Shown: positions 4,936 to 55,139 of the stretch, piece by piece
Position numbering within the stretch: the first letter of the stretch is position 1
Layout of the letters: each line of letters opens with the position of its first letter
Assembly: GCF_009735685.1 (NCBI RefSeq)
Contig: NZ_WHPN01000391.1
Span: 1-64,000, forward strand
DNA from: Streptomyces lycii
Lineage (GTDB): Bacteria; Actinomycetota; Actinomycetes; Streptomycetales; Streptomycetaceae
DNA length: 64,000 nucleotides
Direction of reading: 5' to 3'
The notes under the pieces: model-generated
Databases searched by the model: none
Seen by the model: only the letters and a program-made list of their open reading frames with translations
Told to the model about the DNA's origin: nothing
Position numbers and translations under genes: made by a program

Positions 4936-4960
4936 CCGGCCGCGCTCGGCAGAGCAGTGA

Positions 4961-4994
4961 CGAAGGGCCGCATCCGGCGGGATGCGGCCCTTCG
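4961..4994 (+). terminator. Intrinsic terminator of the rpsF-ssb-rpsR-rplI operon
   Basis: A perfect 14-bp stem (CGAAGGGCCGCATC and its complement) closes a six-base loop CGGCGG just after rplI. There is no long T-run, as is common for Streptomyces terminators. It also faces the 3' end of the convergent MATE gene and could end both transcripts. Confidence 0.9.
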
Positions 4995-5080
4995 CCTTGT
5001 CCGGGGGGTGGTCCGGTGCGGGCGGTGGCTGACCGGGCGAGCGGGCGGAGGACGAGGTGCGGGCGGCGCGCCCGGCCGGG

Positions 5081-33834: not shown

Positions 33835-35415
33835 TCAGTACGAGAAGGCCATCGGCCGGTCGGCCTCGGCGGCGCCGTCCCCGGAGCCGGAACCGGGGCC
33901 GGAACCGGGGCCGGGACCGGAGCGCGGGCCGCCGTGGCCGCCGATCCGGGTGGGCGGGTCGAGGTCGGCCGCGGTCAGCTCGGGCGGTCCGGCCTTGGCG
34001 TACTTCACCAGGAGCCGGACCTCGATCACCGCCAGCACCGCGTAGAGCAGGGTGAAGACGCTCATCGACAGCAGGACCTCGGCCTGGGAGGTGCCGGGGG
34101 AGACCGCGTCCTCGGTGCGCAGGACCCCGTAGACGACCCAGGGCTGCCGGCCCATCTCGGTGAAGATCCAGCCCCAGGAGCTGGCGATCAGCGGGAAACC
34201 GATGGTCAGCACGGCGACGCGCCAGTACCAGTCGGTCAGCGCGGGGCCGAGCGTCCGGCGGCGGGTGAGCGCGAGTCGCGGCACCTCGTCCTCGGTGGTA
34301 CGGAGTTCCGGGGCGAGCCAGAGCCGCTTGCGGGTGAGATACAGGCCGGCGAGGCCGATGGCGAAGGAGGTCATGCCGAAGCCGATCATCCAGCGGAAGC
34401 CCCAGTAGGCGACGGGGATGTTGGGCCGGTAGTCGCCGGGGCCGTACCGCTCCTGCTCGGCCTCGTTGACGTCGTTGATGCCGGGGACCTCGGATTCCAG
34501 GTCGCCGTGCGCGAGGAAGGACAGCAGCCCCGGGATCTCGACGGCGACGTCGTTGTGGCCCTCGTCCACGTCCCCGTAGGCGAACACGGAGAACGGCGCC
34601 GGTGCCTCGCTCTCCCAGAGCGCCTCCGCCGAGGCCATCTTCATCGGCTGCTGCTCGAACATGACCTTGCTGAGCTGGTCGCCGCTGACCGCGGTGAGCA
34701 GGCCGCCGGCGACCAGCGTCACCAGCCCGAGGCGCAACGAGGTCCGCATCACCGGCACATGCCGCCCGCGCCGCAGATGGACGGCGGCGATGCCGGTCAT
34801 GAAGGCACCGCCCGCCAGGAAGGCCGCGGTGAGGGTGTGGAAGACGACGACGAGCGTGGTGTCCTGGGTGAGCACCGCCAGGAAGTCGGTCAGCTCGGCC
34901 CGGCCGGTCCGCTCGTTGATGCGGTAGCCGACCGGGTGCTGCATCCAGGAGTTCGCCGCGAGGATGAAGTAGGCGGAGAGCACGGTGCCGATCGCGACCA
35001 TCCACATGCATCCGGCGTGGATCCGCTTCGGCAGCTTGTCCCAGCCGAAGATCCACAGGCCGATGAAGGTCGACTCGAAGAAGAAGGCGATCAGGGCCTC
35101 GAAGGCAAGCGGGGCGCCGAAGACGTCCCCGACGAAGCGCGAGTAGTCGGACCAGTTCATGCCGAACTGGAACTCCTGCACGATCCCGGTGACCACGCCG
35201 AGGGCGATGTTGATCAGGAAGAGCTTGCCCCAGAACTTGGTCGCGCGGAGGTACTTCTCCTTGCCCGTCCGCACCCAGGCGGTCTCGAGCCCGGCCACCA
35301 GGGAGGCGAGGGAGATCGTCAGTGGGACGAAGAGGAAGTGGTAGACGGTGGTGATACCGAACTGCCAGCGGGCCAGCGTCTCGGGCGCCAGCGCCAGGGT
35401 CATGTCCGCGGTCAC
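33835..35415 (-). CDS. cydA: Cytochrome bd ubiquinol/menaquinol oxidase subunit I
   Basis: The 526-residue protein carries the haem ligands expected for CydA: His26 (YHFLFVPLTI), His193 (FHTLTAA) and Met421 (TEMGRQPW). The quinol-binding loop is of the short type seen in actinobacteria. The C-terminal 45 residues are a Gly/Pro/Ser-rich tail. The GTG start has GGAG at about nine bases; an ATG four codons later lacks such a site. It is the first gene of cydA-cydB-cydCD. A Rex-type operator 85 bp upstream and a long palindrome in the leader point to redox control. Confidence 0.97.
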   Translation of the reverse strand: MTADMTLALAPETLARWQFGITTVYHFLFVPLTISLASLVAGLETAWVRTGKEKYLRATKFWGKLFLINIALGVVTGIVQEFQFGMNWSDYSRFVGDVFGAPLAFEALIAFFFESTFIGLWIFGWDKLPKRIHAGCMWMVAIGTVLSAYFILAANSWMQHPVGYRINERTGRAELTDFLAVLTQDTTLVVVFHTLTAAFLAGGAFMTGIAAVHLRRGRHVPVMRTSLRLGLVTLVAGGLLTAVSGDQLSKVMFEQQPMKMASAEALWESEAPAPFSVFAYGDVDEGHNDVAVEIPGLLSFLAHGDLESEVPGINDVNEAEQERYGPGDYRPNIPVAYWGFRWMIGFGMTSFAIGLAGLYLTRKRLWLAPELRTTEDEVPRLALTRRRTLGPALTDWYWRVAVLTIGFPLIASSWGWIFTEMGRQPWVVYGVLRTEDAVSPGTSQAEVLLSMSVFTLLYAVLAVIEVRLLVKYAKAGPPELTAADLDPPTRIGGHGGPRSGPGPGSGPGSGSGDGAAEADRPMAFSY

Positions 35416-35457
35416 GGTCGTTGCTCCTCACATCGCTGCGAAACCGGCGCGACGTAT

Positions 35458-35495
35458 CACCTGCTTCGTCCCGTACATACGGGGCAAAGCAGGTG
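35458..35495. repeat. Long imperfect palindrome in the cydA leader
   Basis: Two 18-base arms, CACCTGCTTCGTCCCGTA and its near complement, are separated by two bases, with one mismatch and one G-T pair. It lies between the Rex-type operator and the cydA start, about 43-80 bases before the gene. It could form an RNA hairpin in the mRNA leader or bind a dimeric regulator. Confidence 0.8.
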
Positions 35496-35499
35496 CGCT

Positions 35500-35523
35500 T
35501 GTGAACGCGTTCACATTCACAAG
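35500..35523. promoter_or_regulatory. Rex-type operator of the cyd operon
   Basis: TGTGAACGCGTTCACA is a perfect 16-bp palindrome matching the Streptomyces Rex operator known upstream of cydA. Rex is an NADH/NAD-sensing repressor encoded elsewhere. A further half-site TTCACAAG follows directly (35516-35523) and is the inverse of CTTGTGAA at 35498, so a second, wider palindrome overlaps the first. Confidence 0.92.
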
Positions 35524-35877
35524 CCCAGTATGCCGCACAGCTTTTCCGTAGATGTGACCGGGGGTGTGTGCCCTGTGACACACACCCCCGCAGACGCCGC
35601 GGACCGGCGGGCTCCGGTCGGCCCTCGGCCACGGCCGGCATGCCCGGGCAGTTGCCCGGCCGTGGTCAGGCAGTTGCCCGGCCACTGTGCGGCCGTGGTC
35701 AAGCCGTGCCCGGCCCTGTGTCGGTCCTGCTCCGGTTCCGGCCCGCGGGCCGCCGCGCGAAGCGCCTCGTAAACCGGCTCGCGAACGCCCCGCGAACCAC
35801 CCCGTGAAACACCTCTCAAACCGCCCCGCGAACCACCCCGCGAGCCGCTTCCGGCCGGCACCCGCCGGTACCGCCCG
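35524..35877. other. Gene-free gap between cydA and hisC
   Basis: No gene is visible. The part nearest the operator should contain the cyd promoter. CAGTTGCCCGGCC repeats twice at about 35650-35685 and CGCGAACCACCCCG-type units repeat at 35780-35845, at the 3' end of hisC. Confidence 0.5.
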
Positions 35878-36990
35878 CTACAGCTCCTTGCGGAACGCCT
35901 CGGCCGCGCCCAGCAGCAGGTCGTTCGCCTCCGCCTCGCCGACCGTGATCCGTACGCCCTCCCCCGGGAACGGGCGGACGACCACTCCGGCGCGCTCACA
36001 GGCCGCCGCGAACTCGGCCGTCCGCTCCCCCAGCCGCAGCCAGACGAAGTTCGCCTGCGACTCCGGCACCGTCCAGCCCTGTTCCCGCAGTGCCGCCGAG
36101 ACCCGGTCCCGCTCCGTGACCAGCGCGTCGACCCGCTCCAGCAGGGCGGCCTCGCTGCGCAGCGACGCCACCGCGGCGTCCTGCGCCAGCTGGCTCACCC
36201 CGAAGGGCACCGCCGTCTTCCGCAGCGCCGCCGCGACCGGCTCGTGCGCCACCGCGAAGCCGACCCGCAGCCCGGCCAGCCCGTACGCCTTGGAGAAGGT
36301 GCGCAGCACACAGACGTTCGGCCGGTCCCGGTAGAGCTCGACGCCGTCCGGCACCGCGGGGTCACGGATGAACTCGCGGTAGGCCTCGTCCAGCACCACC
36401 AGGACGTTCCGCGGCACCCGGTCCAGGAACTCCTCCAGCTCCGCGCGCCGGACGACCGTGCCGGTCGGGTTGTTCGGGTTGCAGACGAAGACCAGCCGGG
36501 TGCGTTCGGTCACCGCGCGGGCGATCGCGTCCAGGTCGTGCACCTCGCCGCCGGTCAGCGGGACCTGGACGGACGAGGCGCCGGAGATCTGCGTGATGAT
36601 GGGGTACGCCTCGAACGACCGCCAGGCGTAGATCACCTCGTCGCCGGGGCCCGCGGTCGCCTGGAGCAGCTGCTGGGCGACGCCCACCGATCCGGTGCCG
36701 GTCGCCAGGTGCGTGGCCGGCACGTCGAAGCGCTCCGACAGCTCCGCCATCAGGCCGCTGCACGCCATGTCCGGGTAGCGGTTGAAGGAACCGGCCGCGG
36801 CGATCGTGCTCTCCAGCACACCCGGCAGCGGGGGATACGGATTCTCGTTGGAGGACAGCTTGTACGTCACCGGCCCGTCACCGGCGGCGGCCGGCTTGCC
36901 CGGCTTGTACGTCGGGACACCCTCCAGCACCTCGCGCAGCTTCGGGCCCACCGGGGGCTCGGGGGTCTTCCCCCGGGAATCAGTGCTCAC
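35878..36990 (-). CDS. hisC: Histidinol-phosphate aminotransferase-type PLP enzyme
   Basis: The 370-residue class II aminotransferase has [35 protein letters not shown] and the PLP-lysine motif [15 protein letters not shown]. These fit histidinol-phosphate aminotransferase; some actinobacterial members prefer aromatic amino acids. The GTG start has GGAGG at six bases. It is outside the main his operon and stands next to cydA, as the second hisC copy does in S. coelicolor (recalled), so it may be hisC2 or an aromatic aminotransferase. Confidence 0.9.
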
Positions 36991-37357
36991 CGCAGTCCTC
37001 CTCGACCGTCCCGTCGTCGCCAATGCTGCATACCTTATGAGGATTGCGGCGCCGGGCCCACGGGGGACGGAATCCCGGCCGAAGAGGCCCGCAACGGGGG
37101 CGTGCGCGCCCGGTTCTCCGTGCGCCGACGGCGTGCGCCGAGGGCGCTTCACCCGTCCGGGTGACTTGAGACCTCTTCGAAACAAACACCGTTCAGTGGG
37201 CATGAGTCCCTACAGGCTGCTGAGAGTGCCCACAAAGTGCACAACAGCCTGTGTTTTCAAGCCGGTTGGTGTTATGTGATCTTGCAAAAACGTACCTCTT
37301 GACGCTTCTTCACGGGCCACTACCGGGACGCCTTCGGGCCCCTACTATCGGCTGGCC
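36991..37357. other. Divergent promoter region hisC / LacI-family regulator
   Basis: This gap is notably poorer in GC from about 37160 to 37310, with no gene. It contains an inverted repeat ACAGGCTG/CAGCCTGT (about 37212 and 37246). A TTGACG hexamer is at 37299 and a -10-like TACTAT at 37343, nine bases before the LacI start. The inverted repeat could be an operator; that is inference. Confidence 0.5.
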
Positions 37358-44612: not shown

Positions 44613-44621
44613 TGAAGTTCA

Positions 44622-44659
44622 CGAAGGGGGCGCGCACGACTGGGTGCGCGCCCCCTTCG
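44622..44659 (+). terminator. Terminator of the ABC transporter operon
   Basis: A perfect 16-bp stem (CGAAGGGGGCGCGCAC and its complement) closes a six-base loop GACTGG. It starts with the same CGAAGGG as the rplI terminator. Confidence 0.92.
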
Positions 44660-44780
44660 TCATGGCCGGACGGGGCCGTCCCGGGCGACGGGCCCGTCAT
44701 GGGCGACCGGCCGTCACCGGCGGCCCGGTCCGCCGGGGGGCGGGCCGGGCCGTTACGGGCGTACCGGGCGTCCCGGTCCG

Positions 44781-45530
44781 TTACGGGCGGCTCTCCCCGG
44801 GCAGCCGCGGCCTGACGGCCTCGGTCCGCAGCTCGCGCAGCCGGGTGTCCATGTCGGCCATGCGCTCACTCATCGCGCAGACGACGTGGTGGGTGTTGTC
44901 CAGCCGCCGGTCCATGAAGGCCATCCTGCTGTCCATGGTGTCCAGCCGCTGATCGATCCGGTCGAGCCGCGCCGACGTCCTCCGCAGCACCGGCCCCAGA
45001 TCGCGCAGCGCCTCCCCGACGTCGCCGAGGCAGGACTCGACGACCGTCAGCCGGGCGTCGAGCGAACGGCCGCGGTGGTGCTCCCGCCCCCGGTTCCGGC
45101 CACTCGCCGCGGGGTGCGGCCGGGACCGCTCCTCCGTGTCGAGGAGATACGTCCGGACCCGGCGCGCGACCTCGCTGTCGCGGAGCAGCATCGCGACGCA
45201 GAGGACGGCGCGACGGGGGAGAACGGTGAGGTGCGCACGACCCTGTGGATAACTTTCCTTTGAAAGGTCCAAGTTGGACCTTTCAAAGAAGTGCAGCTCA
45301 GAGCCCCTGAGCGTGTGCATCCCATGGGACGCGAGTTCGTCACGGTGCCGTTTGACGAGAGTCTTCGCGGTGTTCTCCGGAACCTCGAAGTACTCGGCGA
45401 CCATGCGCGTCGTGACGTGCAGCCCGTCCGGCAGCGTCACCAGTGTCTTGACCTTGTCGAGCGCCTCGGTGCGGGCGGCGACGCTGTCGCGCAGCGAGCG
45501 GGACTCGGTCAGGGCGGATTCGGGTGGCAT
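44781..45530 (-). CDS. Phage-type DNA-binding protein with C-terminal coiled coil
   Basis: The 249-residue protein has an N-terminal helix-turn-helix-like region (VTTRMVAEYFEVPENTAKTLVKRHRDEL, about residues 40-67). The segment SELHFFERSN and the motif LPRRAVLCVAMLLRDSEVARRVRTYLLDTEE (about 104-134) follow; I remember that motif from phage-borne and Firmicutes DNA-binding proteins. Residues 160-240 form heptad-like repeats (coiled coil). The ATG has GGAGGG at seven bases. A 31-bp AT-rich palindrome and a DnaA box lie inside the gene. Function unknown; DNA binding is inferred. Confidence 0.8.
   Translation of the reverse strand: MPPESALTESRSLRDSVAARTEALDKVKTLVTLPDGLHVTTRMVAEYFEVPENTAKTLVKRHRDELASHGMHTLRGSELHFFERSNLDLSKESYPQGRAHLTVLPRRAVLCVAMLLRDSEVARRVRTYLLDTEERSRPHPAASGRNRGREHHRGRSLDARLTVVESCLGDVGEALRDLGPVLRRTSARLDRIDQRLDTMDSRMAFMDRRLDNTHHVVCAMSERMADMDTRLRELRTEAVRPRLPGESRP
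45244..45252 (-). promoter_or_regulatory. DnaA box (TTATCCACA) inside the DNA-binding protein gene
   Basis: The nonamer sits in the longer sequence CCTGTGGATAACTTT, which also occurs upstream of dnaB and between serS and pheA. It is six bases from the 31-bp palindrome. Confidence 0.6.
45258..45288. repeat. Perfect 31-bp palindrome
   Basis: Arms CTTTGAAAGGTCCAA and TTGGACCTTTCAAAG flank one central G. The sequence is much richer in A and T than the surrounding gene and codes for FERSNLDLSK in the DNA-binding protein. It may be an operator, possibly for autoregulation. Confidence 0.85.
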
Positions 45531-54827: not shown

Positions 54828-55139
54828 GTGAGTCTTCCCTGGGGGTTGTTCTGTCGGTGGTACGGGCCCGGTGGCGGCACGCCGCCGGGCCGCCCGCCCG
54901 GACCGGTGCGGCCCGGGCGGGCGGCGGTCGCAGCGTGGTCCGCCCGCCGGGTGGCGATGCCGCTGCCGTGGCCGGGCGGTGAACCCGCTCCCGGACCGGC
55001 GGCGACGCCGTGGCCGGGCGGCCGTGGCGACACGGCCGCCCGGCTGGCGGGACGGCTGCCGTCGGACGGACCGGCGGCCGTGTCAAGCGGTACGACGGCC
55101 GTCAGGCGGTACGACGGCCGTCAAGCGGCCGGGTGGCCG
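54828..55139. repeat. Intergenic tandem repeats between ycnI and the SCO gene
   Basis: From about 55083 a unit CGGTACGACGGCCGTCA(A/G)G is repeated three times. Upstream are copies of GTGGCCGGGCGG. No gene is visible; the SCO promoter may be here, or transcription may continue from ycnI. Confidence 0.65.

Follow-up and report, generated by a model that had tools for sequence, protein, structure and literature searches.

On balance, we consider it probable that the inverted repeat in the leader of the Streptomyces lycii cydA gene is a stem-loop of the cydA mRNA, transcribed and under selection, rather than a DNA operator, and that its role is a structural or stabilizing one. The gene, which codes for subunit I of the high-affinity respiratory enzyme cytochrome bd oxidase (526 aa, with a GTG start; 33835–35415, minus strand; Pfam PF01654, E 4.2e-170), lies together with cydB on the minus strand of the window, as we term the whole 64-kb stretch of DNA that was analyzed. 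Upstream of cydA is an aminotransferase gene (35878–37203; Pfam Aminotran_1_2), which we take to be hisC. Toward cydA on the minus strand come, in this order, the Rex operator, the palindrome and the start codon, with a putative ribosome-binding site, GAGGAG, at 35424–35429 (minus strand).

The Rex operator and its third half-site

The sequence TGTGAACGCGTTCACA occurs a single time in the window, at 35500–35515. Here, ATGTGAACGCGTTCACAA (35516–35499, minus strand) matches the TTGTGAANNNNTTCACAA-like palindrome by which a Rex operator is recognized, and this predicted operator has the same letters as the ROP footprinted at S. avermitilis cydA1 (PMC5355995). Next to it is an additional half-site, TTGTGAA (35516–35522, minus strand), which together with TTCACAA (35505–35499) forms a wider inverted repeat with 12-nt arms (35494–35505 and 35516–35527) that are 92% complementary. 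The earlier note had described a third half-site creating a second, overlapping palindrome: the half-site is borne out, but what it creates is this wider repeat, which lacks the N4 spacing that a second Rex operator would have.

At S. avermitilis cydA1, DNase I footprinting reveals protection from −3 to +25, the ROP ATGTGAACGCGTTCACAA is situated downstream of the transcription start with the half-site TTGTGAA lying across that start, and gel shifts with Rex give two bands; an ROP with a half-site is likewise found at wblE, and Rex binding of the three-half-site operator has been demonstrated in this species (PMC5355995). The window shares with S. avermitilis cydA1 the operator letters, the TTGTGAA and their place beside the transcription start. 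The extra half-site is part of this already known three-half-site Rex operator and is not new.

The operator is present in all 211 cydA leaders that we collected, because the operator pattern was itself the collection criterion. The extra half-site lies on the same side as in the window in 202 of them and is mirrored in 9; since the collection required either form, these numbers give the split between the two arrangements and not a frequency. The mirrored arrangement, TTGTGAA-N4-TTCAC-N-TTCACAA, is seen in L054, L059, L061, L067, L068, L070, L073, L080 and L081, and its occurrence suggests that the half-site matters on either side. A 24-letter pattern comprising operator and half-site was found in every one of the 61 family genomes searched. 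The S. lycii genome has two copies of it, one at cydA and one before a WhiB-family gene (PF02467, E 1.2e-28). The latter copy, TTGTGAATGTGAACGCTTTCACGA (L252, 772–795; G000:C190:21971–21994), is a second three-half-site operator; its 24 letters match the S. avermitilis wblE site (PMC5355995) and recur in many of the 61 genomes. From the letters given in that account, the WhiB-family gene behind it is presumably wblE. By eye, none of the five wblE-type leaders inspected has a comparable hairpin.

Probable transcription start and upstream elements

A −10-like hexamer, CATACT at 35527–35532 (minus strand) in the window and CATAAT in many relatives, stands 2–5 nt ahead of the half-site in 203 of the 211 leaders. 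In S. avermitilis the cydA1 transcription start falls within the half-site; in the parts of that account available to us, 5′ RACE is named for rex and wblE only, not for cydA1 (PMC5355995). Since the hexamer and the S. avermitilis footprint both place the start in the half-site, transcription of S. lycii cydA probably begins at about 35518–35521 (minus strand), and the palindrome, at about +26 to +63, should be transcribed.

Further upstream, a CCCCC run (consensus gGgACCCCCc; 35560–35564 in the window) lies 29–37 nt ahead of the −10 element in 173 of the 202 leaders with a recognized −10; the one fully valid control, the interval 60–80 nt before the −10, contains such a run in 3 of the same 202. 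This strongly conserved element, at about −43, could be an activator site. In the window, and likewise in L050, L074 and L102, the element serves as the right arm of a longer inverted repeat, the arms of which differ between species; in the window this repeat (CGGGGGTGTGTG / CACACACCCCCG; 35559–35590, minus strand) adjoins the leader hairpin and is separate from it. OsdR was rejected as the owner of the CCCCC element, its consensus AGGGCCGATCGGCCCT, as given in the available part of PMC5069765, being dissimilar. GTGAC-N4-GTCAC is seen directly before the CCCCC run in L008, L078, L084, L086, L090 and L095, which belong to the CTTTATG-type leader group. On the upstream side of the cydA promoter, L003, L009, L013, L016, L023, L025, L029 and others share a TTCAACAATATGTTGAA-like palindrome; by eye, it stands before a divergently oriented gene with a predicted product starting MKIRI-WPAG.

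The palindrome of the cydA leader

The palindrome (35495–35458, minus strand) is a 38-nt repeat of two 18-nt arms separated by 2 nt, of which 16 of 18 positions pair. We thus confirm the 18-base-arm repeat that the earlier note had placed between the operator and the cydA start codon (35458–35495, 89% complementary). Its predicted fold is a stem-loop with 11 pairs, one C×A mismatch, 5 further pairs and a 4-nt loop. When the whole window was scanned for 18-nt arms that are complementary at 16 or more positions and 0–8 nt apart, it yielded 15 registers at 6 places, the cydA palindrome being one of them, versus a mean of 0.25 hits in 20 shuffled copies (shuffled in 200-nt blocks, preserving letters and not dinucleotides), 18 of which had none. 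It is therefore beyond chance, though not unique in the window. The five other repeats, also at least 16/18 complementary, are at 2489–2531, 4958–4997, 44619–44662, 45255–45291 and 54888–54926. The 131-nt RNA 35530–35400 folds at −62.2 kcal/mol, compared with −44.0 ± 3.6 for 200 dinucleotide shuffles (z −5.1).

Distribution of the hairpin

A total of 211 leaders were gathered from 220 records. The 9 records left out comprise L064, L077 and L082, which have no operator pattern; L149, L157, L161 and L190, which are real cydA leaders missed by the search patterns; and L199 and L200, which are second model hits with no operator. In an earlier set, 6 of 110 records had yielded no leader, and L041, L045 and L070 were then added for a total of 107. 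A covariance model built from 36 leaders matches 102 of 150 genomes of the genus (E ≤ 0.001). Inspection of all 104 model hits placed 102 at cydA, the other two being weak second hits (in G081 and G123) with no operator; since scoring covered the top 30 candidates of each genome, weak copies at other loci may have escaped. Upstream DNA was taken from 20 of the 48 genomes with no model match, and yielded 15 short and 5 long leaders.

Short leaders, in which the SD follows soon after the operator, constitute 37 of the 211 collected and, among 80 named loci, 12, with 2 more loci having no operator; because the genomes were picked partly for and partly against a model match, 37 of 211 should not be read as the frequency in the genus. 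Of the leaders belonging to the 106 CydA proteins placed on a tree, 22 are short and have no hairpin, and their distribution needs 11 changes, 9 of which are forced by supported branches. The hairpin has been gained and lost repeatedly among species. Absence from close relatives, which the earlier note had held to count against the palindrome, is indeed observed in the genus genomes closest by CydA identity, G198 (86%) and G008 (84%, with a short leader), but not in L050 and L002, the nearest rows of the tree. The G198 record (L082), with the closest CydA at 86%, also has no Rex operator pattern before that cydA copy.

Pairing of the arms between species

Short leaders were excluded from the folding, arm-swap, window-map, sister-pair and G·U tests. 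In 72 non-redundant leaders with 75–110 nt after the operator, the 48 nt following the operator have a mean folding z of −1.86, with 39% below −2, compared with means of −0.29 to −0.80 in four upstream control windows. Alignment-based tests were negative: RNAalifold on a 36-row alignment predicted no pair; 324 of 500 letter shuffles scored as high as a hand-drawn structure; and column mutual information over 128 rows (from 144 after redundancy removal) found no stacked pairs, its top columns being scattered and some of them near the SD. A multi-helix conserved RNA drawn from a MAFFT alignment, with an outer stem, an inner stem and a GCCG/CGGC hairpin before the SD, was accordingly rejected, as RNAalifold gave no pair and the shuffles were not beaten.

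As leader lengths and stems vary, we used an alignment-free arm-swap test, in which the energy of each 5′ arm with its own 3′ arm is compared with that obtained with the 3′ arms of other species. Among 143 non-redundant long leaders, own arms average −20.43 kcal/mol and swapped arms −17.45, a difference reached in 0 of 2000 permutations; the result is the same with 108, 68 and 44 sequences, so that 0 of 2000 holds at four redundancy levels. Neither of two controls was significant, namely that with the 3′ letters reversed (107–213 of 2000) and that pairing the 5′ arm with the end of the leader (780 of 1000). The effect is one of averages: own arms rank on average no better than the 32nd percentile, 22 of 143 fall in the best 5%, and in the rows of the window and four others the own arm ranks first.

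When pairing between 10-nt windows was mapped over 86 sequences, a single antidiagonal emerged (z −6.0 to −7.4) at the position of the palindrome, running from nt 0–9 × 36–47 to nt 12–21 × 24–35 after the operator. With positions numbered from the start codon instead, just two further values lie beyond −3, namely −5.0 and −3.1, both at the far end, and we take them to be this hairpin again. The third hairpin, GCCG/CGGC, has no clear co-variation in this map, and a competing register of GGUU.GCUCC with GGGGCAAAC, suspected from single folds, was rejected as it gives no signal there.

Among 65 disjoint sister pairs, there are 23 two-sided changes against 10.8 expected, of which 13 pair and 10 do not (shuffled mean 8.6; 113 of 5000 shuffles as high), while one-sided changes break the pair in 85 instances and keep it in 74. 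Selection on pairing thus looks real but lenient. The compensatory arm changes across Streptomyces that the earlier note had pointed to as a check appear in the alignment-free swap test but not in the alignment-based covariation tests. A neutral palindrome due to chance or to local base composition would fit with the ease with which GC-rich leaders fold and with those negative alignment-based results; nevertheless, the permutation outcome at four redundancy levels and the composition controls, which show no difference, make it very unlikely.

RNA stem-loop or DNA operator

On the sense strand the pairing excess amounts to −3.8 kcal/mol (z −10.6); on the antisense strand it is smaller (−2.2, z −6.4). 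In the sister pairs, Watson–Crick pairs change to G·U 99 times and to A·C 43 times, as against 206 and 167 in a slid control (p 0.0035), a count that is tilted somewhat toward G·U by the choice of cells from predicted folds; a strand-symmetric count shows the G·U preference weakly (136 versus 43, against a swapped ratio of 2.18; p 0.039). The inner stems of L041, L197, L011, L030 and L002 are wholly different in sequence and yet still paired. In the clade of the window (with L050 and L002; support 100), each of the three leaders has a predicted hairpin at the same place, and when the folds of the window and L050 are set side by side, the outer stem has a C–G to U–A and an A–U to U–A change. 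The arms co-vary, and they very probably do so under selection as a hairpin of the sense-strand RNA.

The earlier note had left the choice between an RNA element and the site of a second regulator of cytochrome bd. A second dimeric regulator binding the palindrome just downstream of the promoter would account for an inverted repeat beside a known operator, and the keeping of two half-sites alike would also give co-varying arms; moreover, a loose consensus (GTCCCGGTT..TCCC / GGGA..AA.GGGGCA) is common to many relatives. However, the wholesale change of stem sequence with pairing kept disfavors it, and a DNA palindrome offers no reason for the sense-strand excess or for G·U over A·C. The downstream palindrome, present in the window, is absent from the available part of the S. 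avermitilis Rex account, in which the cydA1 footprint ends at +25, before the palindrome (PMC5355995). We therefore consider such an operator quite unlikely. A single hairpin that is stronger on the sense strand and lies downstream of the probable start, with G·U favored over A·C and variable stem letters, fits an RNA stem-loop, so that the RNA half of the earlier proposal is supported and the second regulator is disfavored.

Possible functions of the stem-loop

In the mechanism that we propose, Rex would sit over the start and the early transcribed region. Once Rex leaves, the mRNA would begin with the transcribed operator, which is predicted to form a short hairpin of its own; the strong hairpin would come 3 nt after it, with the ribosome-binding site farther downstream. 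The stem-loop would work after transcription, setting the lifetime or the translation of the cyd mRNA once Rex is gone. The simplest reading is a structural or stabilizing role, or a double-stranded RNA offered to a nuclease; that stabilization is the main role of the hairpin we put forward only tentatively.

In predicted folds the stem-loop leaves the SD uncovered (unpaired 0.54 in the window). For the 137 of 211 leaders with enough downstream sequence, the mean unpaired value of the SD is 0.59 for the 115 long leaders and 0.51 for the 22 short ones, and masking of the SD by the hairpin was rejected on these values. Long leaders have a somewhat more closed start codon (openness 0.26) than short ones (0.35), so an effect on translation may exist. 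The hairpin in the 5′ leader of E. coli ompA is known to stabilize its mRNA. The cydA hairpin resembles the ompA type in its place near the 5′ end, in keeping structure over sequence and in the fairly open predicted SD. It differs from it in following a transcribed repressor operator and in being lost in many relatives.

It is also conceivable, although rather unlikely, that the hairpin provides a second, post-transcriptional layer of control independent of Rex, which would be specific to cydA, be read by an RNA-binding protein or a nuclease, and tie the fate of cyd mRNA to respiration; candidates include cleavage of the RNase III type and an RNA-binding protein linked to redox state or haem. 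We regard as unlikely a sensing RNA, either a riboswitch or a protein-bound leader, that refolds on a ligand to control cyd expression. The presence of a selected structure ahead of a tightly controlled gene, the competing registers that single folds suggest in some species and the fairly conserved sequence 3′ of the hairpin in many relatives would be consistent with one, but the window map has one co-varying helix with no competing pairing, the stem sequences vary widely and the hairpin has been lost repeatedly with no replacement. A search with Rfam 15 further recovered no family at the cydA leader, its one sub-threshold hit being elsewhere in the window, and nothing at gathering thresholds in the leaders of 16 relatives. 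Actinobacterial cis-regulatory RNAs in Rfam 15 likewise form structured leaders before one gene, but no family matches the cydA hairpin. No Streptomyces cydA leader RNA was found among the open-licence matches listed in our literature search; the primary S. coelicolor paper of Brekasis and Paget (2003), which is not among them, may describe one.

A strong hairpin between promoter and gene might also suggest attenuation or termination of transcription, or a leader peptide, and some leaders have a frame running from the operator GTG through the hairpin. Against this, 35380–35900 contains 0 terminator-like sites (a GC-rich hairpin plus a T run); the frames of the cydA start relative to the operator GTG are random (61, 60 and 53 in 174 long leaders); and an ATG at nt 15–36 after the operator is present in only 88 of those 174. 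Control of this kind is extremely unlikely.

Implications

Among the targets of the redox sensor Rex, the cyd operon is a standard one. Should the selected hairpin be real, mRNA levels on their own would be a mixed measure of Rex control at this operon, reflecting mRNA stability as well as transcription. Species have lost the hairpin repeatedly in nature, so that pairs suited to testing its role are already at hand.
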